The notes under the pieces: model-generated
Told to the model about the DNA's origin: nothing
Database searches by the model: none
Seen by the model: only the letters and a program-made list of their open reading frames with translations
From: Methylotenera sp.
GTDB taxonomy: Bacteria; Pseudomonadota; Gammaproteobacteria; Burkholderiales; Methylophilaceae
Direction of reading: 5' to 3'
DNA length: 64,000 nt
Assembly: GCF_030653755.1 (NCBI RefSeq)
Contig: NZ_JAURYU010000045.1
Span: 248,001 to 312,000 of the forward strand
Part shown: in pieces, positions 15,369-21,208 of the stretch
How the letters are laid out: each line of letters starts with the position of its first letter
How positions within the stretch are numbered: the first letter of the stretch is position 1
Made by a program: the position numbers and the translations under genes

Positions 15369-16103
15369 ATGGCTAATTTGCGCTTTTACACTAACTCGCC
15401 TTTGGTAATCAATCAATCTGTTCAGCTTTCAGAAAGTGCGGCCGCCCACGCAACACGAGCACTACGTCTCGCTGAAGGGGACCATGCGATTTTGTTTAAT
15501 GGTGACGGACATAATTACGACTGCACGCTTACCATCGTCAAAAAGAATAGCGTAACAGCCATCATTAACAATGCAAGCAAAGTACATAACGAATCTCCAC
15601 TCAATATCACTTTATTGCAGGCGATTTCTAGCGGGGACAGAATGGACTTTACCATTCAGAAAGCCGTAGAGCTTGGGGTAAGTAATATCCAGCCAATCAC
15701 CAGCAAGCGTAGCGTGGTGAAGCTATCTGCTGAACGTGCAGAGAGACGCACCGAACATTGGCAAAACATTGCTATTTCGGCATGTGAGCAATCTGGGCGC
15801 GCGTATGTGCCCAAGGTACTGCCGCCAATCTCATTTGAAAATTGGTTTAATCAGAACCCAAGTATAGGTACCACTCGCATCCTACTTAACCCGATTGGTG
15901 CAAAACGTTTAGCAGACATTCAAAAGCCAACTGGTGAGATACAGTTGCTGATTGGCGCTGAAGGGGGCCTAAGCCAAGAGGAAATCGACCTTGCAACGTC
16001 GCATCACTTTCAATCAATCTTGCTTGGGCCGCGCATTTTACGTACAGAAACTGCCGCCTTAACGGCTATTGCCGCCATGCAATTAGTATGGGGTGACTTT
16101 TAA
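15369..16103 (+). CDS. rsmE: 16S rRNA (uracil(1498)-N3)-methyltransferase
   Basis: Methylates U1498 of 16S rRNA using S-adenosylmethionine. The 244-aa protein has the RsmE N-terminal PUA-like domain (ATRALRLAEGDHAILFNGDG) and the SPOUT knot domain: the QKAVELGVSNIQPI segment, then IGAEGGLSQEEI and the C-terminal LGPRILRTETAALTAI knot. The length matches E. coli RsmE. It is divergently arranged from the thioredoxin-like gene and probably monocistronic, because the next gene is on the opposite strand. Confidence 0.95.
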   Translation: MANLRFYTNSPLVINQSVQLSESAAAHATRALRLAEGDHAILFNGDGHNYDCTLTIVKKNSVTAIINNASKVHNESPLNITLLQAISSGDRMDFTIQKAVELGVSNIQPITSKRSVVKLSAERAERRTEHWQNIAISACEQSGRAYVPKVLPPISFENWFNQNPSIGTTRILLNPIGAKRLADIQKPTGEIQLLIGAEGGLSQEEIDLATSHHFQSILLGPRILRTETAALTAIAAMQLVWGDF

Positions 16104-16141: not shown

Positions 16142-16525
16142 TTAGCGACTGCATATTACATTAGCTTTTACTTCACCAATGCTATAAGGCACCACCGCAG
16201 ACCAAGCAGTTTCTGATTCTGGTAAGTGATAAGTTGCCAACAAGCTACCTTTTGCCATATTTTCAGCATAATATTTAATGGAAAGTGCTTTGAACTGCTT
16301 ATTTTTACAATCGTGCAGCTCGAGCCACTCGGATGACATTTCACCTTTTGGTTGCTGCACATAATAGTCATTCAATGTTGAAACTGTGATTAAATTTTCG
16401 GCTTTCTGAACTGTATCAAAATCAATCAACATATTGCCATTATCGTTTGTTTGGATCATTGTCCACTCAGCAAAGGCTTTACTTGATATAAATACCAACA
16501 CTAACATCATTAAATATTTACTCAT
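16142..16525 (-). CDS. Small secreted protein resembling surface-adhesin protein E family
   Basis: A 127-aa protein with a typical signal peptide: MSK, a hydrophobic core of about 12 residues, and an AFA-E cleavage site near residue 19. The mature part has two cysteines (DC near 96 and the terminal VICSR) that could form a disulfide. The pattern W-T-x-I ... IDFDT ... LNDY ... YAENMAKGS ... WSAVVPYSIG resembles the Adhesin_E-type domain found in many proteobacterial periplasmic or outer-membrane proteins. The adhesin name reflects a Haemophilus member; here the function is unknown. It converges with rsmE. Confidence 0.65.
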   Translation of the reverse strand: MSKYLMMLVLVFISSKAFAEWTMIQTNDNGNMLIDFDTVQKAENLITVSTLNDYYVQQPKGEMSSEWLELHDCKNKQFKALSIKYYAENMAKGSLLATYHLPESETAWSAVVPYSIGEVKANVICSR

Positions 16526-16704
16526 TGTTTACCTGTTAATTATTATGTAAATTGCAATTTTGATACTAGAGTTTATCGGATAACGATTAATAACTGGATA
16601 ATTATTCATCTAATTGTGCGTAAGTTTATATACTAGACAATACTGAAAACAGATTAATCTCAATATCTCACCCAAAGTGAATCAAAGTTAACCAACAGCT
16701 GAAT

Positions 16705-17217
16705 ATGCAAGAAAAACCATCACCATGGATCATGAAGTTTGCGCCACTGATTAAAAACAAAGGTCGCGTACTAGACCTTGCTTGCGGCAAAGGGCGCCAT
16801 GCCATTTGGCTAGCACAACAAGGTTATCAGGTTGACGCAATAGACCACGACTCAATGGCAACGTCAAGCATGAATGATATCGAGAATATCAATGTTGTGA
16901 TCCGCGATCTTGAAACTAGCGAACTGCCAAAATTTGGGCACGCTTACGATGGCATTGTCGTTAGCCGCTATCTGCATAGACCATTATTAACGCTACTCGC
17001 AGACATACTCAACCCTGATGGCATACTCATTTACGAAACATTCATGAAGGGTAACGAGCATTGCGGCAAACCTAGCAACCCTGATTTTCTTTTATTGCCA
17101 GATGAGCTACGTAACACTTACGCGCCATTACTTACCGTGATTGACTTTGAGCAAGGTGAAGAACGCGAACCCAGTCCAGCAGTAATACAACGCATTTGCG
17201 CCAAAAAGATTACTTAA
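16705..17217 (+). CDS. Class I SAM-dependent methyltransferase
   Basis: A 170-aa Rossmann-fold methyltransferase. Motif I is LDLACGKGRHAIWLA (about 23-37), followed by the acidic end of strand 2 in VDAIDHD; the post-motif region reads YDGIVVSRYLHRPLL. It resembles the TehB-like small methyltransferases, but the substrate cannot be identified. The upstream 180-bp gap is AT-rich and could hold a promoter. It ends 113 bp before the HTH-argA gene; a functional connection is not apparent. Confidence 0.75.
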   Translation: MQEKPSPWIMKFAPLIKNKGRVLDLACGKGRHAIWLAQQGYQVDAIDHDSMATSSMNDIENINVVIRDLETSELPKFGHAYDGIVVSRYLHRPLLTLLADILNPDGILIYETFMKGNEHCGKPSNPDFLLLPDELRNTYAPLLTVIDFEQGEEREPSPAVIQRICAKKIT

Positions 17218-17275
17218 CAGTCACCCACTAGAGCTAATTTAATTCATGTGCAGAATACATGTTTAAATTGTATTA

Positions 17276-17315
17276 ATTACAAATTTGTTTTATATTAATG
17301 TAAATATTACAAATT
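17276..17315 (+). promoter_or_regulatory. Duplicated ATTACAAATT sites upstream of HTH-argA
   Basis: The 10-mer ATTACAAATT occurs at 17276-17285 and again at 17306-17315, exactly 30 bp (about three helical turns) apart. The first copy overlaps the perfect palindrome ACAAATTTGT and the near-palindrome TTGTATTAATTACAA. The sites end 15 bases before the start codon of a protein with an N-terminal helix-turn-helix, so they are candidate autoregulatory operators. The surrounding AT richness lowers certainty. Confidence 0.45.
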
Positions 17316-17330
17316 AATTGGTATTTAATC

Positions 17331-18938
17331 ATGTCACTTGGTCATTGCATTCGTAGCAAGCGTAAATCACTCAATTTAACGCTACAGCAACTTGCCTCTA
17401 AAATAGATGCGGATGCTGGCAATTTATCTCGTATCGAACGCGGCGAACTTGGCGTTTCAGAATCATTATTACGCAAAATCGCAGCCGCACTAGCAACGAC
17501 GCCTGCGAGCCTTTACGCTGAAAGTGATGCCACGCCACGCCAATTAAATGAGCAAGCACCCACTTACATCGTTAATCAAACAGAGTCCGTGAGCAGCATC
17601 AATGCTAACACCAGCGCCAAAGATTTTGTTCAGTGGTTCCGTTCGGCAACACCTTATATCCACGCATTTGGCGGACGAACCTTTGTGATTGCTTTTGGTG
17701 GAGAAGTGGTGAGCGACCAGCAGTTCATTTCACTCTCGCACGACCTAAATCTACTAGCCAGCTTAGAAGTGAGATTAGTGCTAGTACATGGCTCACGCCC
17801 ACAAATTGAAAAACGCCTTAAACGTGACAACATCACCCCACTGCTACATAACGGATTACGTGTCACAGATGATGCCGCAATGGAAGCTGTAAAAGAAGCT
17901 AACGGCGCTATCCGTGTAGAAATTGAAGCGTTATTATCGATGGGGATTGCCAACTCACCGATGGCTGGCGCAGACATCCGCGTGGCGAGCGGCAACTTTG
18001 TGACAGCAAAACCATTGGGGGTGCATGATGGTGTAGATCTTCAACACACTGGCGAAGTACGTAAAGTCGATGCCATTGGCATCCAAAAACGACTAGATGA
18101 CAACGAAATGGTATTACTATCGCCGCTTGGCTACTCTCCAACAGGCGAGGCATTCAACTTAAGCTTGGAAGACGTAGCGGTAAGTACGGCCATTGCATTA
18201 GATGCAGATAAGCTTATTTTCTTAATGGACTCAGAAGGGGTGCACAATTTACGTGGAGAACTCCTGCGCGAGATGACGGCCGAAAAAGCTAAAAATCTAT
18301 TAAGAAATGTACGTGAAACTGAGCAAGCCATTAACATATCAGAAGACGTCACCTACTACCTACCAGCCGCAGTACGTGCCTGTGAGCAAGGCGTAGCCAG
18401 AACACATATGATTAGCCGCCATATTGATGGCGCCATCATTCAAGAGCTATTCACGCTTGACGGCATTGGCACCATGGTCACTGAACTCAGCTTAGAAAGC
18501 ATGCGCCAGGCTAATATTGATGATGTTGGCGGCATCCTGAAGTTAATCGAACCCCTAGAAAACGATGGCATTTTAGTGCGCCGCGGCCGTGAGCGACTAG
18601 AAATGGAAATCGACCATTTTCATGTCATGGAGCACGATAATCGTATTATCGGCTGTGCAGCACTGTACCCTTTTGAGTCAGAAAAAACCGCTGAGTTTGC
18701 ATGCCTTGCCATAGACCCAGCTTACCGCGGTGGTGGTCGCGGTGATAAATTATTTTATTACTGCGCCAATGTTGCCAAAGAGCGTGGGCTTAAAAGCTTA
18801 TTTTGCCTCACAACGCGGACCGAGCACTGGTTCTTGGAACGCGGATTCACCGAACAAAGTGTTGAAAAGCTCCCAACTGAAAAACAAAAACTTTACAATT
18901 TTCAACGCAAATCTAAGGTGTTTAGCAAAACATTGTAA
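17331..18938 (+). CDS. argA: N-acetylglutamate synthase with N-terminal XRE helix-turn-helix
   Basis: First step of arginine synthesis: acetyl-CoA + glutamate to N-acetylglutamate. The 535-aa frame begins with a full XRE/Cro-C1 HTH (about 5-62; LTLQQLASKIDADAGNLSRI) normally absent from ArgA, which is about 440 aa. Residues about 97-380 form the amino-acid-kinase-like domain (VIAFGGEVVSDQ, VLVHGSRPQIEKRL). Residues about 390-525 form the GNAT acetyltransferase domain (CLAIDPAYRGGGRGDKLF). No ATG separates the parts; an in-frame GTG at 17589 could give a normal-length NAGS. argB follows 61 bp downstream. The HTH could allow arginine-responsive autoregulation (inference). The ATG lacks a strong Shine-Dalgarno. 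Confidence 0.9.
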   Translation: MSLGHCIRSKRKSLNLTLQQLASKIDADAGNLSRIERGELGVSESLLRKIAAALATTPASLYAESDATPRQLNEQAPTYIVNQTESVSSINANTSAKDFVQWFRSATPYIHAFGGRTFVIAFGGEVVSDQQFISLSHDLNLLASLEVRLVLVHGSRPQIEKRLKRDNITPLLHNGLRVTDDAAMEAVKEANGAIRVEIEALLSMGIANSPMAGADIRVASGNFVTAKPLGVHDGVDLQHTGEVRKVDAIGIQKRLDDNEMVLLSPLGYSPTGEAFNLSLEDVAVSTAIALDADKLIFLMDSEGVHNLRGELLREMTAEKAKNLLRNVRETEQAINISEDVTYYLPAAVRACEQGVARTHMISRHIDGAIIQELFTLDGIGTMVTELSLESMRQANIDDVGGILKLIEPLENDGILVRRGRERLEMEIDHFHVMEHDNRIIGCAALYPFESEKTAEFACLAIDPAYRGGGRGDKLFYYCANVAKERGLKSLFCLTTRTEHWFLERGFTEQSVEKLPTEKQKLYNFQRKSKVFSKTL

Positions 18939-18984: not shown

Positions 18985-19884
<900 letters not shown>

Positions 19885-19990
19885 ATATCAGGCACAGGTC
19901 AACCCTCAAGCAATACTTGAGCATGCGTGGCATATCAAAGATATCGCAACGCAATCTGTGCCGATTCACAATAAGCGACTAGCGCCAAGC

Positions 19991-20620
19991 ATGAGCAGAA
20001 TCTGGATTTTTGACCTAGACGACACCCTGCACAATGCAAGTGCGCATATATTTCCTGTCATGAATCGCGCCATGACACAGTACATCATGGATGAACTCTT
20101 ACTGTGCGAACCAGAGGCCCATGCACTACGTCAGCGTTATTGGCGCATTTACGGTGCCACGCTCAAAGGTCTCATGCGGCACCACGGTACAAATCCACAT
20201 CACTTCTTGCTTGAAACACACCGTTTGACGACGTTGCACGATATGGTCATTCAAACCAAGCGATTGAAACACATGTTGAACTCACTCTCTGGGCGTAAGT
20301 TAGTGTTCACCAACGCCCCGCGAAGTTATGCTACTCGGGTACTTGAACTCTTAGGCATTGCAGATGTATTTGAGTTGATTTTTAGCGTGGAATCTACAAA
20401 ATTTCATGCAAAACCATCAACACGAGGCTTCCAATGTTTACTCAAAACGATTAACGCAAAAGCAAGCGACTGCGTGATGCTAGAAGACAGTCTTCCCGCG
20501 CTCATGACAGCCAAGCGCCTAGGGATGAAAACCATTTGGATATCAAAAAAGCTACACAAGCCAAATTTTGTAGATTATCGGCTCTCCTCAGTGTTAGCAC
20601 TTACTCACATTAAGCTATAA
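19991..20620 (+). CDS. HAD-family pyrimidine 5'-nucleotidase
   Basis: A HAD phosphatase of the pyrimidine 5'-nucleotidase (SDT1-like) group. Motif I is WIFDLDDTLHNA right at the N-terminus, motif II KLVFTNAPRSYA near the middle, and motif III CVMLEDSLPALMTAKRLGM. I place the start at ATG 19991 because motif I then begins at the usual distance; a GTG at 19958 would add 11 residues. The gene lies between argB and slmA, an order that recurs in betaproteobacteria. It probably removes phosphate from nucleotides or similar metabolites, but the substrate is not certain. Confidence 0.82.
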   Translation: MSRIWIFDLDDTLHNASAHIFPVMNRAMTQYIMDELLLCEPEAHALRQRYWRIYGATLKGLMRHHGTNPHHFLLETHRLTTLHDMVIQTKRLKHMLNSLSGRKLVFTNAPRSYATRVLELLGIADVFELIFSVESTKFHAKPSTRGFQCLLKTINAKASDCVMLEDSLPALMTAKRLGMKTIWISKKLHKPNFVDYRLSSVLALTHIKL

Positions 20621-20650
20621 TTCAAAAAAATCATTTGTTAGGAAAACCAT

Positions 20651-21208
20651 ATGGCAGGCGAACGTAAACAACAAATTCTAGAAACTTTGGCAAAAATGTT
20701 GGAATCTCCAAAAAGAGAGAAAATCACCACAGCAGCATTAGCAGCAAAATTAGAAGTGAGCGAAGCTGCACTTTATCGCCACTTTGCCAATAAAGCGCAA
20801 ATGTTTGAAGGTTTGATTTTGTTTATTGAAGAAACTATTTTTGGCCTGATTAATAAAATCAGTACAGAAGAACCTGAAGGCCTCAGACAAATACAGCGTA
20901 TTGTGACCATGCTCATGGTATTTGCAGAAAAGAACTCTGGCATGACCCGTGTACTGATTGGTGATGCATTGGTGAATGAGGATGACAAACTACAACTGCG
21001 TATTAACCAACTTTATGATCGCATTGAAGTCACACTCAAGCAATGTTTACGCATAGCCGAAGCGCAAACTGGTCACAAGAGTGATGCCGAAGCGCAAGCA
21101 AATTTAATTACTTGCTATATCATCGGACGCTGGAACCAATATGCTAAAAGTGGTTTCAAACGTAAACCTACTGAGTTTATTGAGCAACAACTGCCTAACC
21201 TTTTATAA
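20651..21208 (+). CDS. slmA: Nucleoid occlusion factor SlmA (TetR-like)
   Basis: A DNA-binding protein that blocks FtsZ ring assembly over the chromosome. At 185 aa it has the TetR-type HTH near the N-terminus (ITTAALAAKLEVSEAALYRHFANKAQMFEGL, residues about 25-55 in two overlapping parts) and the conserved SlmA C-terminal segment CYIIGRWNQYAKSGF. The size is close to E. coli SlmA (198 aa). It lies 30 bases after the nucleotidase gene and probably shares its transcript. Its usual targets are SBS sites around the chromosome. Confidence 0.88.
   Translation: MAGERKQQILETLAKMLESPKREKITTAALAAKLEVSEAALYRHFANKAQMFEGLILFIEETIFGLINKISTEEPEGLRQIQRIVTMLMVFAEKNSGMTRVLIGDALVNEDDKLQLRINQLYDRIEVTLKQCLRIAEAQTGHKSDAEAQANLITCYIIGRWNQYAKSGFKRKPTEFIEQQLPNLL

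Follow-up and report, generated by a model that had tools for sequence, protein, structure and literature searches.

Organisation of the argA locus

The window analysed here, a stretch of 64,000 nucleotides of Methylotenera DNA, contains an argA gene (17331..18938, plus strand) that encodes 535 amino acids plus a stop in a single frame open from its ATG. The product, referred to below as HTH-NAGS, is an N-acetylglutamate synthase (NAGS) preceded by an XRE domain, and its parts follow one another on the plus strand in a modular way: (i) an XRE/Cro-C1 helix-turn-helix (HTH) domain of five helices (residues 3-66; 17337..17528), placed by Pfam HTH_3/HTH_31 and by predicted structure; (ii) a variable linker (residues 67-95; 17529..17615) of low identity, with low pLDDT past about residue 70; (iii) the amino-acid-kinase-like domain of NAGS, N-terminal helix first (residues 97-385; 17619..18485); and (iv) the GNAT catalytic domain (residues 388-535; 18492..18935). 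The last two were delimited by the Pfam AA_kinase and GNAT matches (residues 117-361 and 425-508, respectively) together with an alignment to 2r8v. Within the HTH domain, helix 3 of the predicted model (residues 29-36, AGNLSRIE; 17415..17438, plus strand) is assigned as the recognition helix by homology to XRE proteins.

Both HTH matches lie above the curated Pfam cut-offs (HTH_3, residues 7-59, E 1.6e-07; HTH_31, residues 3-59, E 1.4e-07). The NCBIfam equivalog NF003641 (amino-acid N-acetyltransferase) covers residues 93-535 with 699.8 bits for a cut-off of 344, and TIGR01890 matches with 581.1 bits for a cut-off of 202.85. HTH-NAGS is a member of the NAGS family with a true XRE domain. The ArgR domain (PF01316) was not found by Pfam in the protein, where HTH_3/HTH_31 were found instead; HTH-NAGS does not belong with ArgR, which it may nevertheless resemble in the way it works. 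The initial annotation had described a continuous frame running from the HTH into NAGS with no ATG between the two, and this description holds: the 535 codons are open, Pfam and NF003641 cover both parts, and no ATG was read between them in the window gene. The protein is 92-93% identical to those of the Methylotenera loci L108-L110.

The argA gene was also correctly placed by the initial annotation directly upstream of argB. This gene (acetylglutamate kinase by NCBIfam; 19000..19884, plus strand) lies 61 bp past argA, with which it is presumably co-transcribed. Further along the same strand, argB is followed by a HAD-type pyrimidine 5'-nucleotidase and then slmA (19958-21208). On the other side of argA, two genes (16142-17217) stand between it and rsmE (15369-16103), namely a small minus-strand protein with a signal-peptide-like start and a TehB-like methyltransferase. 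In several relatives and in at least two outgroup loci (L208, L209), the apparent end of rsmE lies directly before argA.

Taxonomic distribution of the fusion

A first sample of 41 genomes comprised the window's own genome, 24 others of the genus and 16 from other families of the order. All 21 full-length rows from the genus begin with query residue 1; in the 16 outgroup genomes the match begins at query residue 71-98. A second sample, of 187 genomes from 24 genera, was devoted to the family, and 180 of these genomes gave a match. The initial annotation had suggested looking among close relatives for an absent HTH or for frame-breaking changes. Among the matches listed for Methylophilaceae, which leave aside the genus g18 and many fragments, 147 of 150 start at residue 1-3, the three exceptions being a partly masked row, one half of a gene that is divided between two contigs (G008), and a row starting at residue 186 (G096). 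In g18, a divergent genus of small genomes, an XRE-like domain was read in 11/11 full-length rows; in one poor bin of this genus, 47% complete (G068), HTH and NAGS pieces lie in separate broken frames. Named carriers of the fusion include Methylotenera mobilis, Methylophilus methylotrophus, Methylobacillus, Methylovorus and Novimethylophilus. Of 95 family loci that were taken, 91 match from the HTH onward, the other four being masked, broken or placed at a contig end, and 90 of the 91, with a product of at least 480 aa, were used for the alignments.

Outside the family, no fusion was seen among the matches listed for 399 genomes of the order, in which starts at residue 1-3 occur in family f1 only. 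A start at residues 29-67 is seen in six of these rows, of which four run through a stop codon. Twelve such and other outgroup loci were taken; an independent fusion was considered for the four that were read (L208, L209, L210 and L216) and rejected for these, each showing a stop and no HTH before the start of NAGS. In a class sample of 370 genomes searched with query residues 1-130, a search that an unlike fused HTH could escape, no row but the window's own starts before residue 46. The fusion is thus near family-wide in Methylophilaceae and not peculiar to the window genome. The HTH-NAGS architecture for which the initial annotation had recommended a search is present across the family and was not seen in the samples outside it; the accompanying statement that standard ArgA lacks this domain stands for the relatives outside the family read here, the fusion itself being ordinary within Methylophilaceae.

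Selection, conservation and fold of the HTH domain

With 18 pairs of relatives summed (three of the pairs share a member), dN/dS is 0.096 for the HTH, 0.207 for the linker, 0.021 for the kinase-like domain and 0.052 for GNAT. The HTH is under purifying selection, and the difference between its ratio and that of the linker indicates a domain that is translated and kept, which is stronger evidence than the start codons. The linker has a mean identity of 22% to the window protein (residues 62-94). The initial annotation had proposed to verify the conservation of the HTH contact residues; in the predicted recognition helix, L32, S33 and E36 are invariant in 90/90 aligned rows, N31 is kept in 88 and R34 in 87, figures that count among fusions since the rows were selected for a match from the HTH onward (36 of the 90 belong to the window's own genus).

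These values bear on the reading in which translation begins at the GTG at 17589 and the codons of the HTH go unexpressed, the domain being an artefact of annotation. The GTG does lie in the linker, and no strong Shine-Dalgarno was seen by eye before the ATG at 17331. As 44 of the 77 rows read among the 90 aligned have some ATG, GTG or TTG within the linker, start codons alone leave room for a shorter product. Nevertheless, the column of the GTG at 17589 holds a start codon in just 2 of the 71 aligned rows with a residue there, the window gene included (19 more rows have a gap), conserved promoter elements are located before 17331 and the low dN/dS extends to the HTH itself. An untranslated HTH was ruled out by this selection and conservation, and we regard the artefact as extremely improbable.

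The HTH was predicted alone with 28 family members, and 53 of its 96 residues reached a pLDDT of at least 90, with helix 3 at residues 29-36. A curated HTH_3/HTH_31 match was obtained in 23/23 members checked. The top structural matches of the model are XRE regulators: ClgR (3f52; Z 13.3, rmsd 1.4 over 71), P22 c2 with its operator (2r1j; Z 12.7, rmsd 1.2 over 65) and SinR with DNA (3zkc; Z 12.1, rmsd 0.9 over 62), and 434 Cro on OR1 (3cro) gave Z 11.1 with an rmsd of 1.8 over 65. The full-length AlphaFold model of HTH-NAGS, with a mean pLDDT of 55.9, was too poor for use, so that the geometry of any hexamer rests on a homologue.

Paired candidate operators at the argA promoter

Two 17-bp palindromes of the TTTGTA-N5-TACAAA type precede the ATG of argA and are new here. 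Candidate operator 1, ATTGTATTAATTACAAA (17267..17283), contains a -35-like hexamer, TTGTAT (17268..17273, plus strand). Candidate operator 2, AATGTAAATATTACAAA (17297..17313), starts 30 bp past operator 1 and lies over the predicted transcription start. Between the two operators, 17 bp after the -35-like element, stands a -10-like hexamer, TATATT (17291..17296, plus strand). Both palindromes fall inside 17220-17330, the stretch that the initial annotation had named for a DNA-binding test.

The operator pattern was set by eye on aligned upstream regions and then counted in the same sequences, a strict site being TGTA-N5-TACA and a loose pair being TGY-N7-RCA twice with starts 24-36 bp apart. 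In the 2.49-Mb genome the strict pair is found once only (reversed control, 0). A loose pair is found upstream of 62 of the 91 fused genes, for a mean of 0.1 and a maximum of 1 in dinucleotide shuffles; a strict single site is found in 54 of the 91 (0.45 expected) and at least two strict sites in 27 (0.0 expected), and these odds are overstated because the pattern was chosen on the same sequences and the rows are related. By the pattern used, 29 of the 91 fused upstreams are without a pair. Neither a pair nor a strict site occurs in the upstreams of 8 unfused argA genes or in 88 control stretches (290-400 bp upstream).

Over the 71 pairs available for spacing (range examined, 28-53 bp), 48 are spaced by exactly 30 bp and 58 by 29-31 bp. 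A spacing of 41-42 or 50-52 bp, near four or five helical turns, is seen in 8 pairs, mostly from the smallest genomes, and the remainder are single pairs at 28, 39 and 48 bp and two at 32 bp. TTG is present at the -35 offset in 58 of the 59 rows with a 29-31 bp pair, its TG being imposed by the operator pattern itself. The hexamers at the -10 offset in the 71 rows are TATATT (21), TATTAT (9), TAATAT (7), TATAAT (5) and TAAAAT (4), the rest being other hexamers. A generic sigma-70 promoter scan did not call the argA promoter, whose -35 is weak. Occupied operators would block RNA polymerase, which makes repression the likelier sign of regulation.

HTH residue 40 and operator type

With the 7 rows lacking any site set aside, at least one strict site is found in 52 of the 53 rows that have L or I at HTH residue 40 and in 1 of the 30 that have Q. 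TGTA accounts for 171 of 198 half-sites in L rows and 10 of 100 in Q rows, in which TGCG, TGCA, TGCT and TGTT half-sites prevail. On the tree, residue 40 changes three times and the operator type five times, yielding 2-3 independent pairs, too few for a sign test to reach significance; a statistical covariation of HTH and operator was rejected on this count of independent changes. As far as the aligned sequences go, the joint changes of residue 40 and operator type, confined to about three branches, are suggestive. No recognisable argA palindromes are present in the rows that have Ser at HTH residue 30 (L073, L075 and L088, from the Methylophilus-like g31), a possible third specificity change. 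The region upstream of argA in these three loci has asymmetric TTTGCA...AACC-like elements instead.

argB linkage, ArgR and the other arg genes

Of the 23 genomes of the genus in which argA was hit, 22 have argB no more than 1 kb downstream of it, as do 14 of 14 g18 genomes and none of the 16 outgroup genomes. These counts indicate that the fusion, the paired operators and the argA-argB linkage go together where looked at. ArgR (PF01316) was found in 0/41 genomes (25 of the genus and 16 of other families). Passages of a comparative survey confine ArgR, among proteobacterial classes, to the gammaproteobacteria, which leaves the arginine sensor for betaproteobacterial transcription open there (PMC5343134).

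The strict operator was absent from argG and argC in 7 genomes each, from 900 bp upstream to 200 bp inside the gene; two of the 7 genomes have a Q-type HTH, to which this pattern does not properly apply. Within these two genes the search gave no sign of a wider arg regulon. When one mismatch was allowed, six hits fell inside the coding sequence, all in its first 75 bp, and a seventh was located in one genome at 612 bp upstream of argG.

Arginine site and proposed mechanism

HTH-NAGS can be aligned with the NAGS of Neisseria gonorrhoeae (2R8V) over residues 96-525. In this alignment, on which chain numbering was counted less the 20-residue tag, K294 (18210..18212, plus strand) is the equivalent of K201, which binds arginine in the gonococcal enzyme according to passages of its structural description (PMC4490483), and it is K in 90/90 rows. 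The arginine-binding motif, taken from the same passages, reads E-L-F-T-L-D-G-I-G-T at residues 372-381 (18444..18473, plus strand); its general form E-[LI]-[FM]-[TS]-x-x-G-x-G-T is found in 88/90 rows, and the other two have Tyr for Phe/Met. The gonococcal enzyme is there described as a D3 ring of six subunits in which interlaced N-terminal helices form the hexamer interface, and arginine as shifting the N-terminal helix and widening the ring by ~10 A (PMC4490483). Since the HTH of HTH-NAGS is tethered just before the helix that arginine moves, a ligand-driven change in HTH geometry is plausible.

The initial annotation had proposed a trigger enzyme, that is, an arginine-sensing NAGS that also represses its own operon. 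On comparative grounds the proposal is strongly backed by the conservation of the HTH, the paired operators at the gene's own promoter, the lack of ArgR in the 41 genomes and an argA-argB linkage found in two genera and in 0/16 outgroups, and from these we infer the DNA binding, the repressive sign and the arginine dependence that complete it. We consider it probable that HTH-NAGS is a one-protein feedback device in which an arginine-sensing NAGS represses its own argA-argB promoter, as a functional counterpart of ArgR that is part of the enzyme. The NAGS part would make N-acetylglutamate and bind arginine in its usual place, with the kinase-like domain on one side and the N-terminal helix on the other; the XRE domain is tethered right before that helix. 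If the protein forms a D3 hexamer as in N. gonorrhoeae, the HTHs would be paired at the two-fold axes, and two HTH pairs could sit on two palindromes 30 bp, or about three helical turns, apart on the same face of the DNA. When arginine is plentiful, the enzyme would be inhibited and the shape of the hexamer altered, which would set the HTH pairs for tight binding; bound HTH-NAGS would then cover the -35 and the start site and turn argA-argB off. Arginine would act here as co-repressor, and the opposite sign is possible.

Another scheme, which we judge unlikely, is an autorepressor indifferent to arginine, the HTH only capping the enzyme level by simple negative autoregulation and arginine acting on catalysis alone. 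It agrees, as does the preferred scheme, with the general statement, in passages of PMC12565409, that most XRE regulators autoregulate, and the data at hand hold no link between arginine and DNA binding; the linker is moreover long and variable (22% identity), which would weaken a mechanical coupling. However, the HTH is attached immediately ahead of the helix that shifts with arginine in the gonococcal enzyme, according to the passages cited above (PMC4490483), the residues of the arginine site are present, with the Tyr variant in 2/90 rows, and none of the 41 genomes has an ArgR that would do the sensing.

Relation to known systems

Classical bacterial NAGS (ArgA, for example N. gonorrhoeae 2R8V) has in common with HTH-NAGS the kinase-like and GNAT domains, the arginine site and the N-terminal helix. 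HTH-NAGS differs from it by about 95 extra residues, made of the N-terminal XRE domain and the linker, and by a gene that has paired candidate operators at its own promoter and is linked to argB. ArgR is a hexamer, with two adjacent palindromic boxes at arg promoters. HTH-NAGS would resemble ArgR/AhrC in being an arginine-binding oligomer and in having such a pair of boxes over the promoter of an arg gene; its domain make-up is, however, unrelated, the pathway enzyme would itself do the sensing and no operator of the HTH-NAGS type was found at argC or argG in 7 genomes each. NadR, BirA and PutA are enzyme-repressor fusions, or trigger enzymes, in which a metabolic enzyme also has a DNA-binding domain and controls the pathway it belongs to, and NadR also has a Cro-like HTH. 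In HTH-NAGS the enzyme and the pathway are others, namely the feedback-inhibited first step of arginine synthesis. Finally, the XRE autoregulators ClgR, SinR, P22 c2 and C.Esp1396I have the same HTH fold (Z 11.9-13.3), and palindromic operators near their own gene, as at the argA of HTH-NAGS, are ascribed to such autoregulators in a general statement among passages of PMC12565409; these four are dedicated regulators, whereas the domain of HTH-NAGS is carried by a biosynthetic enzyme.

A description of HTH-NAGS was not found in the open-access papers searched. Its sequence speaks for both an enzymatic and a regulatory function, and we propose HTH-NAGS as a real and conserved candidate enzyme-repressor. 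It would be a concrete and cheaply testable candidate for an arginine sensor, in a family that is represented in culture (Methylophilus, Methylotenera, Methylobacillus and Methylovorus). If this is true, enzyme-repressors would gain the feedback-inhibited first enzyme of a pathway, and a single ligand site would be open to study for two outputs, catalysis and transcription.

A second site at the start of metW

A strict pattern with A/T flanks was found at 28 places in 10 genomes, 18 of them at argA, 9 at the metX-metW junction and 1 elsewhere, for 3 in the reversed control; the start of metW is the only other recurrent strict site in these genomes. In the window's genome it is located at positions 1499-1517 of locus L105 (contig C8). 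The site spans codons 4-9 of metW, ahead of residue 15 where the match to the MetW model begins. It is present in 9 of the 10 genomes and in 13 of a further 20 (one of which, G107, was already in the first set), that is, in 12 of 14 from g1 and g35 and in 1 of 6 from other genera. Of 55 fourfold codons compared over nine genomes, only 5 are invariant, and the GTA and ACA codons of the site are 2 of these. The five bases of the spacer vary, altering amino acids, and the arms are constant, also at synonymous positions. Codon constraints of the start region could contribute to this conservation.

The metW site is also a point in favour of another regulator as the reader of the palindromes, the HTH of NAGS then having a different role (oligomerisation, or binding elsewhere). 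Indeed, the genomes that keep the canonical metW site include G105, one of the three g31 genomes with Ser at HTH residue 30, whose HTH and argA operators have diverged and which has no argA site; this speaks against a shared reader there and is hard to reconcile with a single protein that reads both sites. We nevertheless hold another regulator to be very unlikely, because the argA sites track the fusion (62/91 fused genes, 0/8 unfused), the types of HTH and operator co-vary, if over few independent changes, and the core residues of the recognition helix are invariant, which would be unexpected for a purely structural domain.

Returning to HTH-NAGS as the reader, a bolder extension can be formulated, which we put forward tentatively and think rather doubtful. 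In it, the arginine repressor of Methylophilaceae would be built into the first enzyme of the pathway: NAGS, as an arginine-sensing hexamer, would read the paired palindromes three helical turns apart and would be an independently evolved functional double of ArgR, itself hexameric. In Methylotenera and its close relatives the same protein would read the metW site as well, within the first codons of that gene, and methionine synthesis (metXW) would be tied to arginine status. According to passages of PMC4239095, most betaproteobacteria have a methionine RNA element at metX, but three Methylophilales have it at metZ, a location that would leave metXW free for other control.
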